NCBI RefSeq assembly: GCF_029338395.1
Contig: NZ_CP119809.1
Coordinates: 1,178,001-1,242,000 of the forward strand
Length of the DNA stretch: 64,000 nucleotides
Direction: 5' to 3'
DNA from: Halorussus caseinilyticus
GTDB lineage: Archaea; Halobacteriota; Halobacteria; Halobacteriales; Haladaptataceae
The notes under the pieces were generated by a model, which had not been told where the DNA came from, did not search any database, and saw only the letters and a list, made by a program, of their open reading frames with translations. The position numbers and the translations under genes are program-made. Below are positions 50,800-58,508 of the stretch, piece after piece; the stretch's first letter is position 1; the number at the start of each line of letters is the position of its first letter.

Positions 50800-51504
50800 A
50801 TGTCACTCCAGCGGGCAAGCTTTCGTGGGGACTGCTCGACCCACGACTTTCAGGAGGTGTTGAAACGGTTCAAAAACGAAGGATGCAACCTCCTCGTTAC
50901 GGGCGCCGTTTCCGAAGACGTAACGGCAAAAGCGACGCAGACGCTTCTCGGCGCACCGACCGCCGACCGCAAGCGCGTCGTCGCCTTGGCAGACTCCCGA
51001 GACGAGAGCGTCTTCGAGCTACTGCCGCCGGGCGTCGATACCGACGACCCGGACGTGTGGGTCGTAGACCAGCACGCACACCAGCGGTCGGTTCCGAAGG
51101 CCGCCCAGAGCGCGGACTTCGACCTTCCCGGACCGGGCGAGGACCGGGACGTACTGGCCGATTTGCGCGAGGAAATCGTCGTCGCCATCGACTACTTCGA
51201 GGAAGCCAACGGCGGACTCGCCCCGTCACAACTTCGACTGTCGGTGTCGTCGCTCGGCCGACTGGCCCACGAACACGGCGCGAACGAGGTGTCGCGGTTC
51301 CTCCGGTCGGTCTCTGCGATGGTTCGCGGGGTCCACGGCATGGGTCACTACCACCTGCCGCGACCCGACGACGACGAGATGGTGGACCGACTCTCGCCGC
51401 TGTTCGACGCCCGAATCGAACTCCAAAAGCGCGACGGACTGCCGACCGAACAGCGCTGGCACGTCCCGAAGTACGAACAGACCACCGACTGGGTACGCCT
51501 TTGA
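50800..51504 (+). CDS. DUF7504-like regulator or partner of the CHAT protease
   Basis: A 234-residue soluble protein. FQEVLKRFKNEGCNLLVTGAVSEDVTAKATQTLLG and RKRVVALADSR resemble the haloarchaeal DUF7504 family, a RecA/KaiC-like fold without a clear Walker A. The C-terminal SQLRLSVSSLGRLAHEHGANEVSRFLRSVSAMVRGVHGMGHYHLP is conserved. An AATTTTATTTTC element about 30 bases before ATG 50800 fits a leaderless start. Its stop overlaps the GAGGTGAT ribosome site of the next gene, so it is co-expressed with the CHAT protease. Confidence 0.72.
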   Translation: MSLQRASFRGDCSTHDFQEVLKRFKNEGCNLLVTGAVSEDVTAKATQTLLGAPTADRKRVVALADSRDESVFELLPPGVDTDDPDVWVVDQHAHQRSVPKAAQSADFDLPGPGEDRDVLADLREEIVVAIDYFEEANGGLAPSQLRLSVSSLGRLAHEHGANEVSRFLRSVSAMVRGVHGMGHYHLPRPDDDEMVDRLSPLFDARIELQKRDGLPTEQRWHVPKYEQTTDWVRL

Positions 51505-51512
51505 GGTGATTC

Positions 51513-53636
51513 ATGGACCCGACGTTCACGAGAACCACTGAACGAACCGGCATCGAGATAGCAGACCCCATCGAGAACGCCCGCTTCGAGTTGTACACGT
51601 CGAGAGCAGTAGACCCGACTCCCGTCCCGACCCACGAGTTCCACTTCCCCGTCGATTCTGCCGTCTCCGTCGAGACCAGCGCCGTCGCCGTGCCGAAACT
51701 AGCGAACGTCCTCGTCCGAACGCAGTCGGGCGAACTCGTCGCCGACAACGCCGACCACGTGGACCGGTCGCTCGCGCCCGGCGCGTACACCGTCGAACTG
51801 AGTACCGCGCCGATGAAACTCTACCTCTCCGTCGAGAGTGCGCTCGAACTCCGCCACGACGAGACGGCGGTCCGCGTCGCCTTCGGGGACCCGACCGAGG
51901 TGGCAATCGGCGCGCGGTCGTTCCACGACCAACCGGCCGGAACCGTCACGACGACTGACGACCCCGCGGGCGCGATGAAAGCCGTCTCGCTTCTGGGGTC
52001 GGCGCTGAAGACGACGAGTCCGGAGCGCTCGTTTCCGACTCTCCGGGGCCACCCGCCGCTAATCGAAGTCGGCGAGGAGTTCGACGCGCCGGAGGGTATC
52101 GAGCGACCGGATACCGGCGTCCGCATCGAGATTCCGGCCGAGTACGAGTACGTCTACCCCGTCTCGTCGCTGGCGTACTACCTCGGCGCGGAAGTCGTCC
52201 CGGCCGACCGCCCGCGCCTCGTCACCGACGAAGGCTTCGAGTACGACCTCGACGGACCCCTCGGTTTCGAGAAGACCGTCGGGCGCGTCCTCCGCCAGAC
52301 GTTCTTCTTCGACTGCGTGACCCGGACCGAGGGCTACTATCAGGTGGACCTCCACGAGCGACGGGCGGTCGAATCCGTCGTGGACCTCGACTTCGCCGAC
52401 CTCTACGACCGGTCCCCGGCCGAACGCCTCGCGGCCTACCTCTCGGTCCCCTACGAGACCGTCGCGGCGTTCGTCCCGGAGTGGAACCTGACGACCGACG
52501 TGATGGCGACCCCGGACAACGCCGAGGTGTTGCCGTTCGTCGCCAGTGACCTCGCGTTGGTCCGGTGTCCCCGCGACCCGACCACGGCGTCGGTGAACCC
52601 CACGCCCGAACCAATCGACGAGTTCTTCCGCGGCGGCGCTGGCGGCGACTCCGTGACCGCCGGGTGCGCGTCCGACGACTTCACCCGGAGTACGATGGAC
52701 GCCAACGCCGCCGCGCCCGCGCAGGGCGAGATTTTCAACCCGGAACCCGCCGATACCGTCGAACACGCGTGGGTCGGCGACGGGTTTCCCCTCGGCGCGA
52801 ACAAGGCATCAATCGAATCCTACCGGCGTCGGGTCCAGCGGTCGGCCCCCGAGAAGACGAGCATCGAGATTCACGTCGTCTGCAACGACGAGCGCATGAT
52901 GGAGGAGGGCGTGGTCGAGGAGTTCTACGGCCTGCGGGAACTGCTCCAGTTCGACGTGTCGGTCCACTACGAACTCACGACCGACGAACTCCGGGAGTTG
53001 CTGGCCGAACCCGCCGACTTCCTCCACTACATCGGCCACGTGGACGACCACGGGATGCGGTGTCCCGACGGTCACCTCGACGCCCGCACGCTCTCGGACG
53101 TGAACGTCAAAGCGTTCGTCCTCAACGCGTGTCGGTCCTACACCCAAGGCGAGGCGCTGGTCGAGTCCGGAAGCTACGGCGGCGTCGTGACGCTGGCGGA
53201 AATCGCCAACAGCGTCGCCACCGAAATCGGCCAGACGCTGGCGCGCCTGCTCAACTGCGGGTTCTCGCTCCGGGTCGCGCTCTCGGTGGTCAAAGACACG
53301 ACTGCGCCCGCCTACCAGTACGTGACGGTCGGCGACGGCGGGTTGACCCTGTGTCAGAGCGAGAGCGGAACGCCGCTCCACTTGGAAATCGAATCGCTGG
53401 AGTCGGGCCGATACAGGACGAAGTTCCGGACGTATCCGAGTCCGAGTCACGGTCTCGGTTCGATGCAGAAACCGAACATCGCTGGCGTGAACACCCGCTA
53501 CTTGGCGTCCGGAGTAATCGACACGTACGAACTGAGCGCCGACGAACTCGACTCGTTCTTCGGCTTAGAGGTTCTGCCGGTAGAATTAGACGGCGAGCTA
53601 CGGTGGAGCGACGAGATACGGCGGCAGGAACTCTAA
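51513..53636 (+). CDS. CHAT-domain (caspase-like) protease, module A
   Basis: A 707-residue protein. The N-terminal about 140 residues are beta-rich. A central conserved region follows (SALKTTSPERSFPTLRGHPP, LVTDEGFEYDLDGP, FADLYDRSPAERLAAYLSVP). The C-terminal third is CHAT-like: FLHYIGHVDDHGMRCPDGHL with His505/His509 and AFVLNACRSYTQGEALVE with Cys540, the expected His-Cys dyad, then GGVVTLAEIANSVATEIGQTLARLLN and LRVALSVVK. About 100 further residues follow. CHAT proteases act in regulated cleavage and cell-death or defence systems. A strong Shine-Dalgarno GAGGTGAT couples it to the upstream gene. A paralogue lies at 56303. Confidence 0.82.
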   Translation: MDPTFTRTTERTGIEIADPIENARFELYTSRAVDPTPVPTHEFHFPVDSAVSVETSAVAVPKLANVLVRTQSGELVADNADHVDRSLAPGAYTVELSTAPMKLYLSVESALELRHDETAVRVAFGDPTEVAIGARSFHDQPAGTVTTTDDPAGAMKAVSLLGSALKTTSPERSFPTLRGHPPLIEVGEEFDAPEGIERPDTGVRIEIPAEYEYVYPVSSLAYYLGAEVVPADRPRLVTDEGFEYDLDGPLGFEKTVGRVLRQTFFFDCVTRTEGYYQVDLHERRAVESVVDLDFADLYDRSPAERLAAYLSVPYETVAAFVPEWNLTTDVMATPDNAEVLPFVASDLALVRCPRDPTTASVNPTPEPIDEFFRGGAGGDSVTAGCASDDFTRSTMDANAAAPAQGEIFNPEPADTVEHAWVGDGFPLGANKASIESYRRRVQRSAPEKTSIEIHVVCNDERMMEEGVVEEFYGLRELLQFDVSVHYELTTDELRELLAEPADFLHYIGHVDDHGMRCPDGHLDARTLSDVNVKAFVLNACRSYTQGEALVESGSYGGVVTLAEIANSVATEIGQTLARLLNCGFSLRVALSVVKDTTAPAYQYVTVGDGGLTLCQSESGTPLHLEIESLESGRYRTKFRTYPSPSHGLGSMQKPNIAGVNTRYLASGVIDTYELSADELDSFFGLEVLPVELDGELRWSDEIRRQEL

Positions 53637-53637
53637 G

Positions 53638-53784
53638 TCAGGGACCTGCATTCGTACTCGCACCGTTCGCGGCCACGTTTCCTGCCTGCATCAGGAGGAG
53701 GCAAATCGTGAACAGCGCGCCCATCATCCGCGGGTGTGCTTCGAGGTACTCTGCCATCTTCCGCTGTGTGGTATTCCGTGCCAT
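53638..53784 (-). CDS. Tiny membrane peptide convergent with CHAT protease A (DUF7503-like)
   Basis: A 48-residue peptide ending 1 base from the protease stop. N-terminal basic part RNTTQRKMAEYLEAHPRMM, hydrophobic stretch GALFTICLLLMQAGNVAA, C-terminal NGASTNAGP. It aligns with the peptide at 58374-58508 over nearly its whole length, sharing YL-x-x-(H/N)PR-x-MG-x-LFT-x-x-LLL-x-Q-x-GN-x-A and the C-terminal AGP. I recognise the type as DUF7503. It may be an activator, membrane anchor or substrate of the protease; this is inference. Confidence 0.75.
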   Translation of the reverse strand: MARNTTQRKMAEYLEAHPRMMGALFTICLLLMQAGNVAANGASTNAGP

Positions 53785-54027
53785 GACCAATTGTCACAAT
53801 GAACCCCACATAATTGAATCTATCTAAAGCATGAAAATAGAAAGATTATTAAAATAGGCTCGTAAATGCATTTAAGATATTCGGTAAATGAGGAGTTCGG
53901 GGTCGTACGGCCGAGAGCCGACGGACGACCGGCGACTTCGACGCCGCGCTCGCGGACCGCCGGACGCTCCCGCCGAGCGGAACGTCAGGGGGTAAGGATT
54001 TTGCCGGGGGAGTGTGAGCGAGCGCGT

Positions 54028-54333
54028 ATGGATAGTGGTTTCGACCTCGACCTCCAAGCGGTCGAGCAGGAGATAGAAGACGACGGCGACGGAGGCGACC
54101 AAATCGACCGACGAATCGTCCTCGGTGAGCTGGACGGTACGACCGACGAGCGCGACTGGTTCGAGGTCATCGACCGGGGCAACGTCCTCGTGCTGGCCGT
54201 CGAAGGCGACCTGCCGGAACTGGCGTCGGACCTCGCCCCGCGAGTCAAAGAGCGCGGCGGCAGTCTGATTCACTTCCGGGAGTTTCTCGTCGTGACGCCC
54301 GCGGACGTGAGTGTGGACGCGGACCGGCTCTGA
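54028..54333 (+). CDS. Conserved haloarchaeal protein (DUF5779-like)
   Basis: A 101-residue soluble protein: FDLDLQAVEQEIEDDGDGG, RIVLGELDGTTDERDWFEVI, NVLVLAVEGDLPELASDLAP and LIHFREFLVVTPADVSVDADRL. I recognise the haloarchaeal family DUF5779. Function unknown; it resembles a small alpha-beta regulatory domain. ATG 54028. It lies between the two CHAT modules but is widely conserved on its own. Confidence 0.78.
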   Translation: MDSGFDLDLQAVEQEIEDDGDGGDQIDRRIVLGELDGTTDERDWFEVIDRGNVLVLAVEGDLPELASDLAPRVKERGGSLIHFREFLVVTPADVSVDADRL

Positions 54334-54540
54334 GACGGCGGATTTTGGCGAGAGCGTCACTCGGGACCGCACCGCGAATCGAAATCGTTTCGAGCGGTAG
54401 CTTCGACTACACCCAGTCTCCACACTGATAGCAGATGTTTTCCTATCTATTAGCATCCTATCTACATTAGAAAGCAATAATTTTATTTCTAATACAAATA
54501 TTTTTATTTCTAATCGGTCGAAAGCCACGCCGCCGAGAAT

Positions 54541-54660
54541 TTAAATACCGGCGGGCGACCAACTCGCCCCGGACGCTTCGCGCGGTTCCGGGCGAGGCGG
54601 CGCGCGGGCACTGCCCGCGCGCCGCGGGACCGCCAGTCCGACTAATCCGAGAGGACCGAG
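54541..54660 (+). repeat. Dispersed repeat C, copy 2
   Basis: Matches 16087-16193; 54597-54645 is identical, including the 14-bp palindrome. An AT-rich lead with repeated TTTTTATTTCTAAT lies just before it (54475-54515). As with copy 1, it is placed between convergent genes (DUF5779-like and VOC). Confidence 0.75.
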
Positions 54661-54709
54661 CCAGACACATCGAGTACCGCGAATCGCCGGGGACCGACGC
54701 CGAGCGGCG

Positions 54710-55387
54710 TCACTCGAACGTCAGATAGTGGCCGTCGGGGTCGCGCACCCGAATTCCGTCGTCGGTCTCCTCGACCGCGCACACGTCCTCGCGGACCGCC
54801 TCGACCGCCGCCGTCGGGTCGTCGGCCGCGAATCCGACATCGACGTGGAGACCGCCGCGAGCGTCGGCTATCCCCAACTGCGGTTCCCAGAGTTCGAGGT
54901 CCACCGGCCCGCCGAGGCGGAGTCTCCGGCGTTCGCTCCCGCGGTCCACCACCTCGAACCCGAGCGACCGGTAGAGTGATTCGGCGCGCGCGAGGTCCTC
55001 GACTTCCAGCACGATTTCGAAGATGTCGGTGATGGAGTCGTCGCCGTCGCCGACGCTCCCGATTTCGACGCAGTTGCCGTCCGGGTCGTAGAAGTACAAC
55101 GACTTCGCGCCGCCGAAGTCGAACTCCGTGAGTTCGAACGATTCGGCGAGTCGGTCGTACCACGTCGCGTACCGGTCCGGCGGCGCGGCGAAGGCGTAGT
55201 GGGTGTGGACCCCGCCGCGGGGCACCGCGCCGGGTTCCCGAACGACGAGGTTCGTCCCGCCAGCGTCGAAGACGACTTCGCCCCCGCCCTCGCGGACCAC
55301 CGGCAGGTCGAGGTGCGTCGCGTAGAACTCGCGGGCGCGGTCTAGATACTTCGCTTCGAGTGCCAGCCATCGCAACCCCGAGAGCAT
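54710..55387 (-). CDS. VOC-family (glyoxalase/dioxygenase-like) protein
   Basis: A 225-residue protein with two vicinal-oxygen-chelate repeats. The first, LEAKYLDRAREFYATHLDLPVV, runs to SLYFYDPDGNCVEIGSVG; the second, EVEDLARAESLYRSLGFEVV, runs to RVRDPDGHYLTFE. Metal-binding His and Glu are partly kept (VHTHYAF, CVEIG, LTFE). Possible dioxygenase or isomerase; no substrate assigned. ATG 55387 gives LSGLRWLALEAKYL. Confidence 0.85.
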   Translation of the reverse strand: MLSGLRWLALEAKYLDRAREFYATHLDLPVVREGGGEVVFDAGGTNLVVREPGAVPRGGVHTHYAFAAPPDRYATWYDRLAESFELTEFDFGGAKSLYFYDPDGNCVEIGSVGDGDDSITDIFEIVLEVEDLARAESLYRSLGFEVVDRGSERRRLRLGGPVDLELWEPQLGIADARGGLHVDVGFAADDPTAAVEAVREDVCAVEETDDGIRVRDPDGHYLTFE

Positions 55388-55501
55388 GGCTTCGGGGTAC
55401 GCGCGCCCGGCGCTTAAACCCCCGCGTGGCGGCGTTCCGAGAGCCTCGCGTTCTCGCCGCTGTCGGTGGGGATTTTGTGGCTTCGGTCCGTAGCGACGGG
55501 T

Positions 55502-56179
55502 ATGCCGCTCAAAAAGAGTCAGCCAGCGACCGACTACGAGGAGATAGACCGCTGGGAGAAGGGCGTCGGGTGGATAGCACACCCCGACGAGACGATGCTA
55601 CGGGCGAGTCACGCGTTCGCCACGGACGCTGGCGTCTGGGTGGTAGACCCCGTGGATGCCGAGGGAATCGACGACCTGTTCGCCGAGTTCGGCGACGTGG
55701 CCGGGGTCGTCGTCCTCCTGAATCGTCACTACCGGGACGCCGACGAAATCGCGCGCCGTCACGACGTTCCGGTCTACGTCCCCTCGTGGTTCGACCGGGT
55801 TCCCGAGATGGACGCCGACCTCCGGCGGTTCGACACCACTCTCCCCGGAACCGACTACGAACTCCTGAAGATTACCGACTCGTTCGGGTGGGAGGAAGCG
55901 GCGCTCTACGACGCCGACGCCGGAACCCTCGTCGTCGCCGAGAGCGTCGGCAACGCGCCGTACTTCACGACGCCCGGCGAGCGAATCGGCGTCCACCCCA
56001 TGATGCGACTGACCCCGCCGTCGGAACTCCGGGACCTCAGACCGGAACGCGTCGTCGTCGGCCACGGACGCGGCGTGTTAGACGACGCCGCGCGCGCACT
56101 CGACGACGCCATCGCCGGTTCGCGCCGCGGAACTCCGAAACTCTACGCCGAGAATCTACGGATGTTGGTACAGCGGTAG
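55502..56179 (+). CDS. MBL-fold-like protein with degenerate metal site
   Basis: A 225-residue protein whose order of strands resembles metallo-beta-lactamase proteins: GVGWIAHPDETMLRASHAF, GVWVVDPVDAEGIDDL and GVVVLLNRHYRDADEIARRHDVPVYVPSW. The usual HxHxDH is replaced by NRHYRDADEIA. Later VVAESVGNAPYFTTPGERIGVHPMMRL and VVVGHGRGVL fit the fold. It is probably non-catalytic or binds an unusual metal set. It ends 124 bp before the second CHAT gene, same strand. Confidence 0.75.
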   Translation: MPLKKSQPATDYEEIDRWEKGVGWIAHPDETMLRASHAFATDAGVWVVDPVDAEGIDDLFAEFGDVAGVVVLLNRHYRDADEIARRHDVPVYVPSWFDRVPEMDADLRRFDTTLPGTDYELLKITDSFGWEEAALYDADAGTLVVAESVGNAPYFTTPGERIGVHPMMRLTPPSELRDLRPERVVVGHGRGVLDDAARALDDAIAGSRRGTPKLYAENLRMLVQR

Positions 56180-56302
56180 CGGCCCAGACGCCGAGTGAGA
56201 CGCCGGAACTGCCAATAAATTTTTAGACTTCTAACATAAATTGTAGGGCATGGGATTTTGGAGAGGGGTGAAATCGACGCGCAGAACGGGGGGAGCGTAG
56301 CC

Positions 56303-58357
56303 GTGACGCTCTCGTTCGACTCCACGTCCGACCGGCCGGGCGTCGAGATTCGAGACCACGTCGAGCGCCGCACGTACGCCCTGCACACGCCGTCGGCCGT
56401 CTCGCCGACGCCCGCGGACGCCGACGAGTTTCGGTTTCCGGTGGACGCCGCGGTGTCCGTAACGACCGATGCCGTCACGCTCCCGACGTTCGTCGCGGCC
56501 TACGTCCGGGACGCCGACGGAGAGATGCGTCTCGAAGTCCGGCCCGAGACAGACCGGCGACTTCCGGACGCGGCGTACCGCGTCGAGGCGTGTGCGCCGA
56601 TGAAACTCTACTTCGCGGTCGAAGGGCCGATTTCGGTGACCGCGAGCGACGACCGGATTCGGTTCGCGTTCGACTCCGACACCGAGGTCCGGGTCGGCGC
56701 GCGCTCGCACCACGAGCGTCCCGCCGCGACGGTCACGACGACCGAAGACTCCCGAGACGTGATGACCGCCCTCTCGACGCTCGGGTCCGCGCTGAAGACG
56801 ACCAGTCCCGAACGGAGTTTTCCGACCCTGCGGGGCCACCCGCCGCTAATCGAGGTGGGCGACGAACTTCGAGTGCCCGACGGTATCGACGCGCCCGAGA
56901 CCGGCGTCCGAATCGAACTACCGCCCGACCGGGGCCACGCCTACGTCGCCGCACCGCTGGCGTTCTATCTCGGCGCGAAACTGGTGCCCGGCGGGACGCC
57001 GCGCCTCGTCACCGACGAGGGCTTCGAGTACGACCTCGACGGCCCGCAGGGGTTCGAGACGGCGGTCGCCCGGACACTGAAACAGACGTTCCTCTTCGAC
57101 TGCGTGACCCGGACCGAGGGCTACTACCCGGTCGAGTTGCACGAGCGGGGGGCGGTCGAATCGGTGGTGAACCTGAACTTCGCCGACCTCTACGACCGGT
57201 CCCCGGCCGAACGTCTCGCCGCCTACCTCTCGGTTCCCTTCGATGTCGCCGCCGAACACGTCCCGACGTGGAAACTGACGACGCACGTCGAACCCGCGCC
57301 CGAGAACGTCGAGTCGATACCGTTCCTCGTGGACGACCTCGCGGTCGTCCGCACGCCCGACGCCCGGCGGACGGCGGCCCGGCGTCCGACTGCAGGGGTC
57401 GGCGACGGCGACGACTTCACCCGGAGTACGACCGAGACGGGCGAAGTCCGTCCGGTGGTCGAACCGGGACGGACCGATTCGGTCGAACAGGCGTGGCTTG
57501 GCGACCACGCGCCGGTGGACGCGAGCAAGGCGACCCCAGCCGCGTTTCGCAACCGCCTCGAACGGGGACCAGACGCCGGAGACATCGAAATCGAAGTCGT
57601 CTGCAACGACACCGCGATGGGCGAAGAGCGTGACCTCGCTGCCGAGGTGTACGGGTCCCGCGAGACCCTCCCGTTCGACGTGACGGTCCACCGAGATTTG
57701 ACCGCCGAGCAACTCCGGGCGCTACTGACCGAAGAGACGGCGTTTCTCCACTACATCGGCCACATCGACGGTCGGGGATTCGAGTGCGCGGACGGCCACC
57801 TCGACGCGGCGGCGGTCGAGTCGGTCGGTGCCGAGGCGTTCGTGTTGAACGCGTGTCGGTCCTACGACCAAGGCATGGCGCTGGTCGAAGCGGGGAGCGT
57901 CGGCGGCGTCGTCACGCTCAGCGACGTAATCAACAGCGGTGCCGTCAGAGTCGGCAAGACGATGGCCCGTCTGCTGAACCGCGGGTTCCCGCTACGGGCG
58001 GCGCTGTCAATCGCTCGCAATCGGAGCGTCGTCGGCAACCAGTACATCGTGGTCGGGGACGGAAACGTGGACATCGCCCAGACCGAGAGCGGTATCGCGT
58101 TGCTCGGCCGGATAGAGTCCGCGGGCGACGAGTACGAGATGACCGCGACGACGTATCTCTCCGCCGACAAGGGTCTCGGGTCGATTAGCAGGCCCATCTT
58201 CGGCGAGGGGAACGAGTTCTACCTCGCGTCCGGGGACATCGGGCCGTTCACGCTCTCGAAGCCGGAACTGGTTACGTTTCTGACGGGAGAGAACGTCCCG
58301 GTAGTCCTCAACGGCGAGTTCTCGTGGAGCGGCGACATCGACCCGGCAGAACTCTGA
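56303..58357 (+). CDS. CHAT-domain (caspase-like) protease, module B
   Basis: A 684-residue paralogue of the protein at 51513. Shared blocks include GSALKTTSPERSFPTLRGHP, RLVTDEGFEYDLDGP, DLYDRSPAERLAAYLSVP and DDFTRST. The CHAT dyad is FLHYIGHIDGRGFECADGHL (His483/His487) and AFVLNACRSYDQGMALVE (Cys518). GTG 56303 aligns with the start of the module A protein (TLSFDSTSDRPGVEIRD); the frame stays open a little upstream. No DUF7504-like gene precedes it. A small convergent peptide gene follows. Confidence 0.82.
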   Translation: MTLSFDSTSDRPGVEIRDHVERRTYALHTPSAVSPTPADADEFRFPVDAAVSVTTDAVTLPTFVAAYVRDADGEMRLEVRPETDRRLPDAAYRVEACAPMKLYFAVEGPISVTASDDRIRFAFDSDTEVRVGARSHHERPAATVTTTEDSRDVMTALSTLGSALKTTSPERSFPTLRGHPPLIEVGDELRVPDGIDAPETGVRIELPPDRGHAYVAAPLAFYLGAKLVPGGTPRLVTDEGFEYDLDGPQGFETAVARTLKQTFLFDCVTRTEGYYPVELHERGAVESVVNLNFADLYDRSPAERLAAYLSVPFDVAAEHVPTWKLTTHVEPAPENVESIPFLVDDLAVVRTPDARRTAARRPTAGVGDGDDFTRSTTETGEVRPVVEPGRTDSVEQAWLGDHAPVDASKATPAAFRNRLERGPDAGDIEIEVVCNDTAMGEERDLAAEVYGSRETLPFDVTVHRDLTAEQLRALLTEETAFLHYIGHIDGRGFECADGHLDAAAVESVGAEAFVLNACRSYDQGMALVEAGSVGGVVTLSDVINSGAVRVGKTMARLLNRGFPLRAALSIARNRSVVGNQYIVVGDGNVDIAQTESGIALLGRIESAGDEYEMTATTYLSADKGLGSISRPIFGEGNEFYLASGDIGPFTLSKPELVTFLTGENVPVVLNGEFSWSGDIDPAEL

Positions 58358-58373
58358 ACCCGTGGTCCTGAAT

Positions 58374-58508
58374 TTACGGCCCGGCAGTAGTCGAGAACAC
58401 CGCTCCCGCGGCGTTGCCAGTCTGGGAGAGTAACAACAGCATCGTGAACAGGACGCCCATCTTCCGCGGGTTCTCTGCGAGGTACGTGGTGAGGCTCGTT
58501 TCTGACAT
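58374..58508 (-). CDS. Tiny membrane peptide convergent with CHAT protease B (DUF7503-like)
   Basis: A 44-residue peptide: SETSLTTYLAENPRKMG, hydrophobic VLFTMLLLLSQTGNAAGAV, ending FSTTAGP. It ends 16 bases from the protease stop. Same layout as the peptide at 53638, including the C-terminal AGP. CTTAAATAG lies about 20-30 bases upstream of ATG 58508 on this strand, so it has its own promoter. Confidence 0.75.
   Translation of the reverse strand: MSETSLTTYLAENPRKMGVLFTMLLLLSQTGNAAGAVFSTTAGP

Follow-up and report, generated by a model that had tools for sequence, protein, structure and literature searches.

A CHAT-like protease and a convergently encoded DUF7503 micropeptide form a paired module in Halorussus caseinilyticus and other haloarchaea

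Locus architecture

The window considered here (the whole stretch of DNA analyzed, 64,000 nucleotides of Halorussus caseinilyticus contig NZ_CP119809.1, positions 1,178,001 to 1,242,000) carries two modules, A and B, in each of which a gene for a large CHAT-like protease is met from the opposite strand by the gene for a micropeptide of Pfam family DUF7503 (Table 1). The stop codons of the two genes lie 1 bp apart in module A and 16 bp apart in module B, and both peptides terminate in AGP. The gene for CHAT A, whose nearest named relatives are those of Halorussus, is preceded by a DUF7504 gene that ends 8 bp 5' of it; the gene for CHAT B has an alternative start, TTG 56258, from which the protein would have 699 aa. 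All five genes were found where an earlier reading, made from the letters of the DNA alone (the sequence-only reading), had placed them, and its positions, orientations and residue numbers for the His and Cys residues (H505/H509/C540 in A; H483/H487/C518 in B) are borne out, with CHAT B numbered from GTG 56303. Its further claim that each peptide has its own promoter finds support in an A/T-rich region upstream of 63 peptides and in nothing else.

Table 1. Features of the two modules in the window, with the loci of the tail arrays described below (pLDDT, predicted local distance difference test)
Feature	Position or locus	Strand	Evidence
DUF7504 protein, 234 aa	50800..51504	+	PF24336, E 8e-53; AlphaFold pLDDT 86; Foldseek to KaiC CI, E 1e-7; Walker A missing
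CHAT protease A, 707 aa	51513..53636	+	AlphaFold pLDDT 85.9; Foldseek matches to clan CD
HYIGH motif of CHAT A (H505, H509)	53025..53039	+	invariant in alignments
LNACRS motif of CHAT A (C540)	53121..53138	+	invariant in alignments
DUF7503 micropeptide A, 48 aa, convergent with CHAT A	53638..53784	-	PF24335, E 1e-22
Tail of peptide A, NGASTNAGP, after AXA-like site; putative working part	53641..53667	-	tail analysis, repeat arrays
CHAT protease B, 684 aa from GTG 56303; H483/H487, C518	56303..58357	+	54% identical to CHAT A
DUF7503 micropeptide B, 44 aa, convergent with CHAT B	58374..58508	-	PF24335, E 1e-19
Tail of peptide B, GAVFSTTAGP (C-terminal)	58377..58406	-	tail analysis
Tail-array loci of genus g43	L054, L057, L058, L062, L063; also L121-L123, L140-L144

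The CHAT-like protease

Sequence searches of the PDB gave no match for the CHAT protein, and its relatives emerged from fold comparison alone. The AlphaFold model of CHAT A, built on an alignment of 43 sequences (pLDDT 85.9; predicted template modelling score, pTM, 0.86), is predicted to contain an N-terminal beta-sandwich, an alpha/beta middle part and a C-terminal clan CD protease domain, at about residues 415-700. Using Foldseek, its best match is to SAVED-CHAT (8tl0, E 3e-6), with others to the Craspase TPR-CHAT protein (7y84), to separase and to gingipain R; the probability is 1.00 for both 8tl0 and 7y84. H505, H509 and C540 are conserved in 160 of the 161 alignable rows, the sole exception being a badly aligning fragment. 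Against the Pfam CHAT profile (PF12770, cut-off 24 bits), CHAT A gives no match and CHAT B a sub-threshold 12.9 bits; one CHAT paralogue of this genome scores 24.2 bits, above the cut-off. By predicted fold and motif, and not by Pfam profile, CHAT A and CHAT B are CHAT-like clan CD proteases, for which proteolysis is predicted. This agrees with the class that the sequence-only reading had assigned from the His/Cys dyad, both in the fold of the pLDDT 86 model and in the invariance of the dyad.

NCBIfam had nothing on the module proteins. No TPR domain was matched in the CHAT proteins by profile searches, the predicted structure being a beta-sandwich plus CHAT, and neither Pfam nor PADLOC gave any match to SAVED or TPR domains or to cas neighbours for the module proteins.

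Pairing of protease and peptide across genomes

Peptides A and B belong to DUF7503 (PF24335), with 79.9 and 70.1 bits against a cut-off of 27. DUF7503 and DUF7504 are named Pfam families annotated only as being of unknown function, in line with the earlier remark that no described function was known, and literature searches (DUF7503, DUF7504, CHAT plus Haloferax, archaeal peptide pheromones) returned no relevant paper. The Halorussus caseinilyticus genome, searched in stretches, has 13 DUF7503 matches and 16 CHAT matches, about 13 of the latter near full length, spread over the main contig and smaller replicons; the two modules first noticed are both present, and their number was understated. 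A convergent peptide accompanies 12 of the 13 near-full-length CHAT loci, two of the 12 being divergent.

The same association is seen throughout the class. In a sample of 242 Halobacteria genomes, CHAT was found in 223 (92%) and DUF7503 in 206; the two occur together in 205 genomes and are both absent from 18, CHAT alone is present in 18, and one has a marginal DUF7503 without CHAT (p=2.4e-16, a value that ignores the relatedness of the genomes). Starting from DUF7503, a convergent CHAT gene was present at 29 of the 29 best matches and at 40 of 40 further ones, mostly from different genera, for a total of 69/69. The gap between the two genes at these 69 loci ranges from -21 to +206, plus one of 992, and is usually 0-100 bp, with the stops often overlapping or adjacent (-4, 0, +1, +4). 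Starting from CHAT, all 29 top loci of other genomes have a partner in that place, either a DUF7503 peptide (24) or one of the tail arrays described below (5). Two further DUF7503 peptides without Gly-Pro lie 18 and 260 bp from CHAT. The co-occurrence that the sequence-only reading had proposed to look for is therefore far beyond chance, and the pairing is maintained across distant genera, plasmids and paralogues. The two Pfam families themselves were already catalogued; the convergent pairing of CHAT with DUF7503, the anatomy of the tail and the tail arrays are newly found here.

A second haloarchaeal paralogue clade (L207-L215, L219, L220) retains the N-terminal half of the CHAT protein and has lost the His/Cys motifs, and none of these 11 dyad-dead paralogues has a DUF7503 peptide beside it (0/11). 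Because of this, the peptide appears to accompany the active protease, activity being predicted. The reverse is not strict, since CHAT-only genomes with an intact dyad exist in genus g32 and a few others; no peptide was found within 450 bp of CHAT in these genomes. In one of the genomes without a DUF7503 match (L125), a divergent peptide with a longer tail still has Gly-Pro at its end. Outside Halobacteria, a related protein occurs in four genomes of one family (f19) among 247 drawn from the phylum. Three of these four were examined (L216-L218); the peptide is absent from all, and the dyad is kept in two of the three.

Several individual loci were also recorded. In Halorussus caseinilyticus, L024 (C1:2080000-2099999) holds full and partial CHAT genes clustered between and beside two DUF7504 genes, and every piece has a convergent peptide of its own; the partial copies retain the protease domain and peptide only. 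L025-L028 (contigs C3, C4) are near-duplicate modules on two replicons; in at least two the CHAT gene carries an early stop or a frameshift towards its 3' end, and among them peptide L007 has lost its Gly-Pro end. L119 (C1:1298405) and L120 (C1:2504191) encode DUF7503 peptides, with the endings AGP and SGP, and lack a CHAT gene for about 4 kb around. In L138 and L139, both with a CHAT partner, the DUF7503 peptide stops short of the Gly-Pro.

Anatomy of the peptide

The peptides share a consensus consisting of a short variable start, YLAE[HN]P[RK]M, a 13-residue apolar run, SQAG, [VA]AA, 6-8 variable residues, Gly-Pro and stop. The 13-residue apolar run is found in 95 of 102 distinct peptides, an AXA-like site before the tail in 99, and Gly-Pro at the very end also in 99; in a count over 63 distinct sequences, 62 end in Gly-Pro. 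Charges sit on the N-terminal side, and the tail is nearly free of charged residues. Tails are alike within clades, as in the ..SQVGP endings seen in genera of family f4. The whole reads like a signal peptide followed by a product of 8-10 residues, with putative cleavage at the AXA-like site.

Gly-Pro is written in varying codons and is no less fixed in pairs whose genes stand clear of each other by 50-206 bp. It is therefore selected at the level of the protein, and the idea that it arises from the overlap with the CHAT stop codon was rejected on these same grounds. Between species, the ratio of non-synonymous to synonymous differences (pN/pS) amounts to 0.25 in the leader and 0.79 in the tail, with 0 at Gly-Pro. 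Small genes are readily mis-called and both families are of unknown function, which might be taken to mean that the peptide gene is a passenger kept by synteny alone, or an over-called open reading frame. Such a view is hardly credible for a Pfam family with the Gly-Pro ends just counted and purifying selection at the codon level, in which the pairing persists over so wide a range of genera, plasmids and paralogues.

Tail arrays in genus g43

In genus g43 the convergent partner of CHAT is a hydrophilic protein made of 4-14 repeats of [YFMVLS][TN]ADGN[SG][SG]GISGP, which replaces DUF7503. It has no hydrophobic segment and the leader is gone, with the same 4-bp overlap of stops with CHAT as is seen elsewhere. 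The repeat unit resembles the single-copy tails of other genera of the family, such as AAGNHGAISGP, and the five array-linked CHAT genes form one clade with full support. Copy number varies by species, the unit being fixed inside each array; at the two variable positions the residues are uniform inside an array and different between species. The unit was found nowhere else in the g43 genomes, the array occurring at the CHAT locus only. No two of the 13 units scored in the longest array have the same DNA, and all of them encode one and the same 11-residue core, the pairwise comparisons summing to 393 synonymous and 0 non-synonymous differences (pS 0.58, pN 0). Low-complexity slippage and gene conversion were rejected as explanations of this 13-unit array, given the differing DNA of the units and their identical core.

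Because g43 lost the hydrophobic part and yet kept and multiplied the tail, the tail is probably the working part of the peptide. The role at the membrane that the sequence-only reading had emphasised, and with it the case for an activator, inhibitor or effector there, loses force accordingly, as the hydrophobic part can be dispensed with and only the tail is kept, as 4-14 repeats.

The arrays also speak against a pore-forming peptide or a type I toxin. In a type I toxin-antitoxin-like arrangement, the 3' end of the CHAT mRNA would overlap the micropeptide mRNA and control it as an antisense, without the two proteins touching. The strictly convergent order and the frequent overlap or abutment of the stops are what it would predict; however, gaps of up to +260 and of 992 are equally conserved, the g43 array is not hydrophobic, selection on the tail units and on Gly-Pro acts strongly at the protein level, and the loss of the peptide beside dyad-dead paralogues would be unexpected under antisense control. 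We therefore regard this arrangement as very improbable. Obligatory antisense overlap as a general rule was rejected, with gaps running from -21 to 992.

The other possibility on which the arrays bear is a protease with a pore or death effector in the style of CHAT/caspase-gasdermin or Craspase-Csx30, where cleavage of the peptide would free a membrane-active fragment, by which stressed or infected cells would be killed or arrested. The fold is closest to those of SAVED-CHAT and Craspase and the peptide is hydrophobic, both of which would suit it, as would a report of caspase-like activity in Haloferax volcanii, where clear gene homologues are said to be lacking and no gene has been assigned (PMC3615174). 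That species has DUF7503 and DUF7504 (their profile matches there served as controls); its CHAT partner is expected from the pairing and would be a natural candidate for the reported activity. Set against this, g43 dispenses with the hydrophobic segment, and the module is near-universal in Halobacteria rather than patchy, with about 13 copies in one genome. PADLOC reported 0 families for all five proteins of the two modules, and no homologues of the module were found in phage and viral collections. A pore or death effector is thus improbable, and a role in defence or programmed cell death, which the sequence-only reading had suggested, found no support; defence was rejected as the main explanation on the PADLOC result, the absence of viral homologues and the distribution.

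The DUF7504 gene

The gene upstream of CHAT A belongs to DUF7504 (PF24336), with 179.9 bits against a cut-off of 27. In its AlphaFold model (pLDDT 86), from an alignment that excluded two rows from named plasmid records, the fold is matched by Foldseek to the KaiC CI domain (E 1.2e-7). Despite this RecA/KaiC fold, Walker A (GxxxxGK[ST]) is absent from the module copies. A DUF7504 gene is common, not constant, in this position, being found upstream of 19 of 29 sampled CHAT genes, and there are 22 DUF7504 matches in this genome. Other DUF7504/DUF7090 proteins of the genome have a KaiC ATPase profile match, a winged helix, or a response-regulator/GAF gene alongside; in L110 (1267-2367, minus strand) and L109, DUF7504-type KaiC-like domains are fused to a winged helix (DUF7343) or adjoin a response-regulator/GAF gene. 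This suggests that domains of this type belong to a wider signalling family. Because of its KaiC fold without Walker A and its signalling-type relatives, the DUF7504 protein is presumed to be a regulatory pseudo-ATPase, a regulatory subunit co-transcribed with CHAT A.

Proposed function

That a regulated protease is kept together with a short peptide, as the sequence-only reading had put it, stands on the co-occurrence, the fold and the conservation of the dyad. The interpretation that we put forward, and which we consider evenly poised between right and wrong, is of a two-to-three-gene haloarchaeal module in which a CHAT protease has a dedicated peptide precursor whose tail it reads or processes. 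The tail is most likely a dedicated ligand or substrate of its CHAT neighbour, which would bind it or cleave it. The conserved leader, with its 13-residue apolar run, would bring the peptide to the membrane or across it; a cut at the AXA-like site would release a tail of about 8-10 residues ending exactly in Gly-Pro; CHAT would read or process this tail as ligand, substrate or pseudosubstrate; and the KaiC-like pseudo-ATPase, where present, would set the activity of the protease. If a free Gly-Pro end matters, the arrays would be cut after each Gly-Pro, with CHAT as the obvious candidate for the cutter. The tail might act in either of two forms, as an exported propeptide tail, perhaps a signal, or as a pseudosubstrate that stays tethered and keeps the protease membrane-bound. 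The distribution of charges and the shortness of the apolar run would favour the exported tail, while the strong conservation of the leader and the apparent lack of an export signal in CHAT would favour the tethered pseudosubstrate.

The second of these forms, taken without any secretion, gives the alternative of a membrane-tethered pseudosubstrate inhibitor or anchor, calpastatin-like, in which the tail occupies the protease at the membrane and its release activates the enzyme. It would account for the one-to-one pairing only with proteases that keep the active dyad, the conserved leader could be a real membrane segment, and the soluble, multivalent g43 version resembles multi-repeat protease inhibitors. 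However, an apolar run of 13 residues (in 95/102 peptides) is short for a stable membrane span, the AXA-like site is nearly always there (99/102), and a near-chargeless tail with the charges N-terminal to it is predicted to lie outside. We think this alternative unlikely on balance.

A number of points weigh against the interpretation of the module as a protease with a dedicated, tail-bearing partner. In about 5% of CHAT-bearing genomes, genus g32 for example, no peptide can be recognised, and the dyad is intact in most of these; two DUF7503 genes of the present genome are without CHAT nearby. The leader (YLAEHPR..GVLFT...LLSQAG) is more conserved than a generic signal peptide requires, and may itself bind something. 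The distribution of charges should put the tail outside the cell, and CHAT has no visible export signal, so that a meeting of the two would need re-uptake or the opposite topology, or would never happen. Finally, small residues (A, G, S, N, T) make up most of the single-copy tails, which could be a loosely constrained linker.

Comparison with known systems

The likeness of the haloarchaeal CHAT proteins to SAVED-CHAT, the Craspase TPR-CHAT protein, separase and gingipain R lies in the predicted fold and the His/Cys motifs (HYIGH, LNACxS). SAVED-CHAT and Craspase differ in that the haloarchaeal protein has neither SAVED nor TPR and no cas genes beside it, with an N-terminal beta-sandwich instead, and in that its partner is a convergently encoded micropeptide. 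In the CHAT/caspase systems with bacterial gasdermin and in Craspase-Csx30, a CHAT protease likewise has a dedicated partner protein encoded nearby, but at 44-50 aa DUF7503 is far too short for a gasdermin, has no CRISPR or defence context, and is class-wide. Calpain and calpastatin, a cysteine protease and its endogenous inhibitor of repeated units, have no sequence relation to CHAT-DUF7503, for which inhibition would be putative.

A parallel to the peptide itself is found in the RRNPP/RRNPPA systems of Firmicutes (PlcR/PapR, Rap/Phr, AimR/AimP), with which it shares the layout of a propeptide, a gene beside that of its partner, and occasional multi-copy forms. RRNPP propeptides begin with a short charged stretch, continue with a hydrophobic region and carry the active peptide, a few residues long, at the C-terminus; some hold several copies of that peptide (PMC10075063, PMC9765709). 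DUF7503 fits them in length (10-100 aa), hydrophobic region and adjacency; secretion and activity of its tail we only infer. Unlike them, its partner is a protease, not a TPR receptor, it is archaeal (archaea are unmentioned in the surveys PMC10075063 and PMC9765709), and its gene is convergent, where the RRNPP peptide gene is usually downstream. It also has an invariant Gly-Pro end and a strongly conserved leader, and its array version is leaderless.

The sequences suggest an undescribed protease-peptide control circuit in nearly all of the sampled haloarchaea. A caspase-like protease family present in 92% of 242 Halobacteria genomes is thereby given a partner, along with a short candidate ligand open to testing. 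Secretion of the tail would make this a peptide signalling system in archaea; with or without it, a pair of Pfam families annotated as being of unknown function can now be approached by experiment as a single module. A more specific version, which we hold to be doubtful, would make archaeal pheromones of the DUF7503 peptides: each CHAT would have its own secreted peptide of eight to ten residues ending in Gly-Pro, through which haloarchaea would sense kin or population density and adjust the activity of the protease. Were that so, the roughly 12 parallel orthogonal pairs of this genome, together with the precursors of 4-14 tails, would be the archaeal counterpart of Phr, PapR and AimP, with a protease replacing the TPR receptor.

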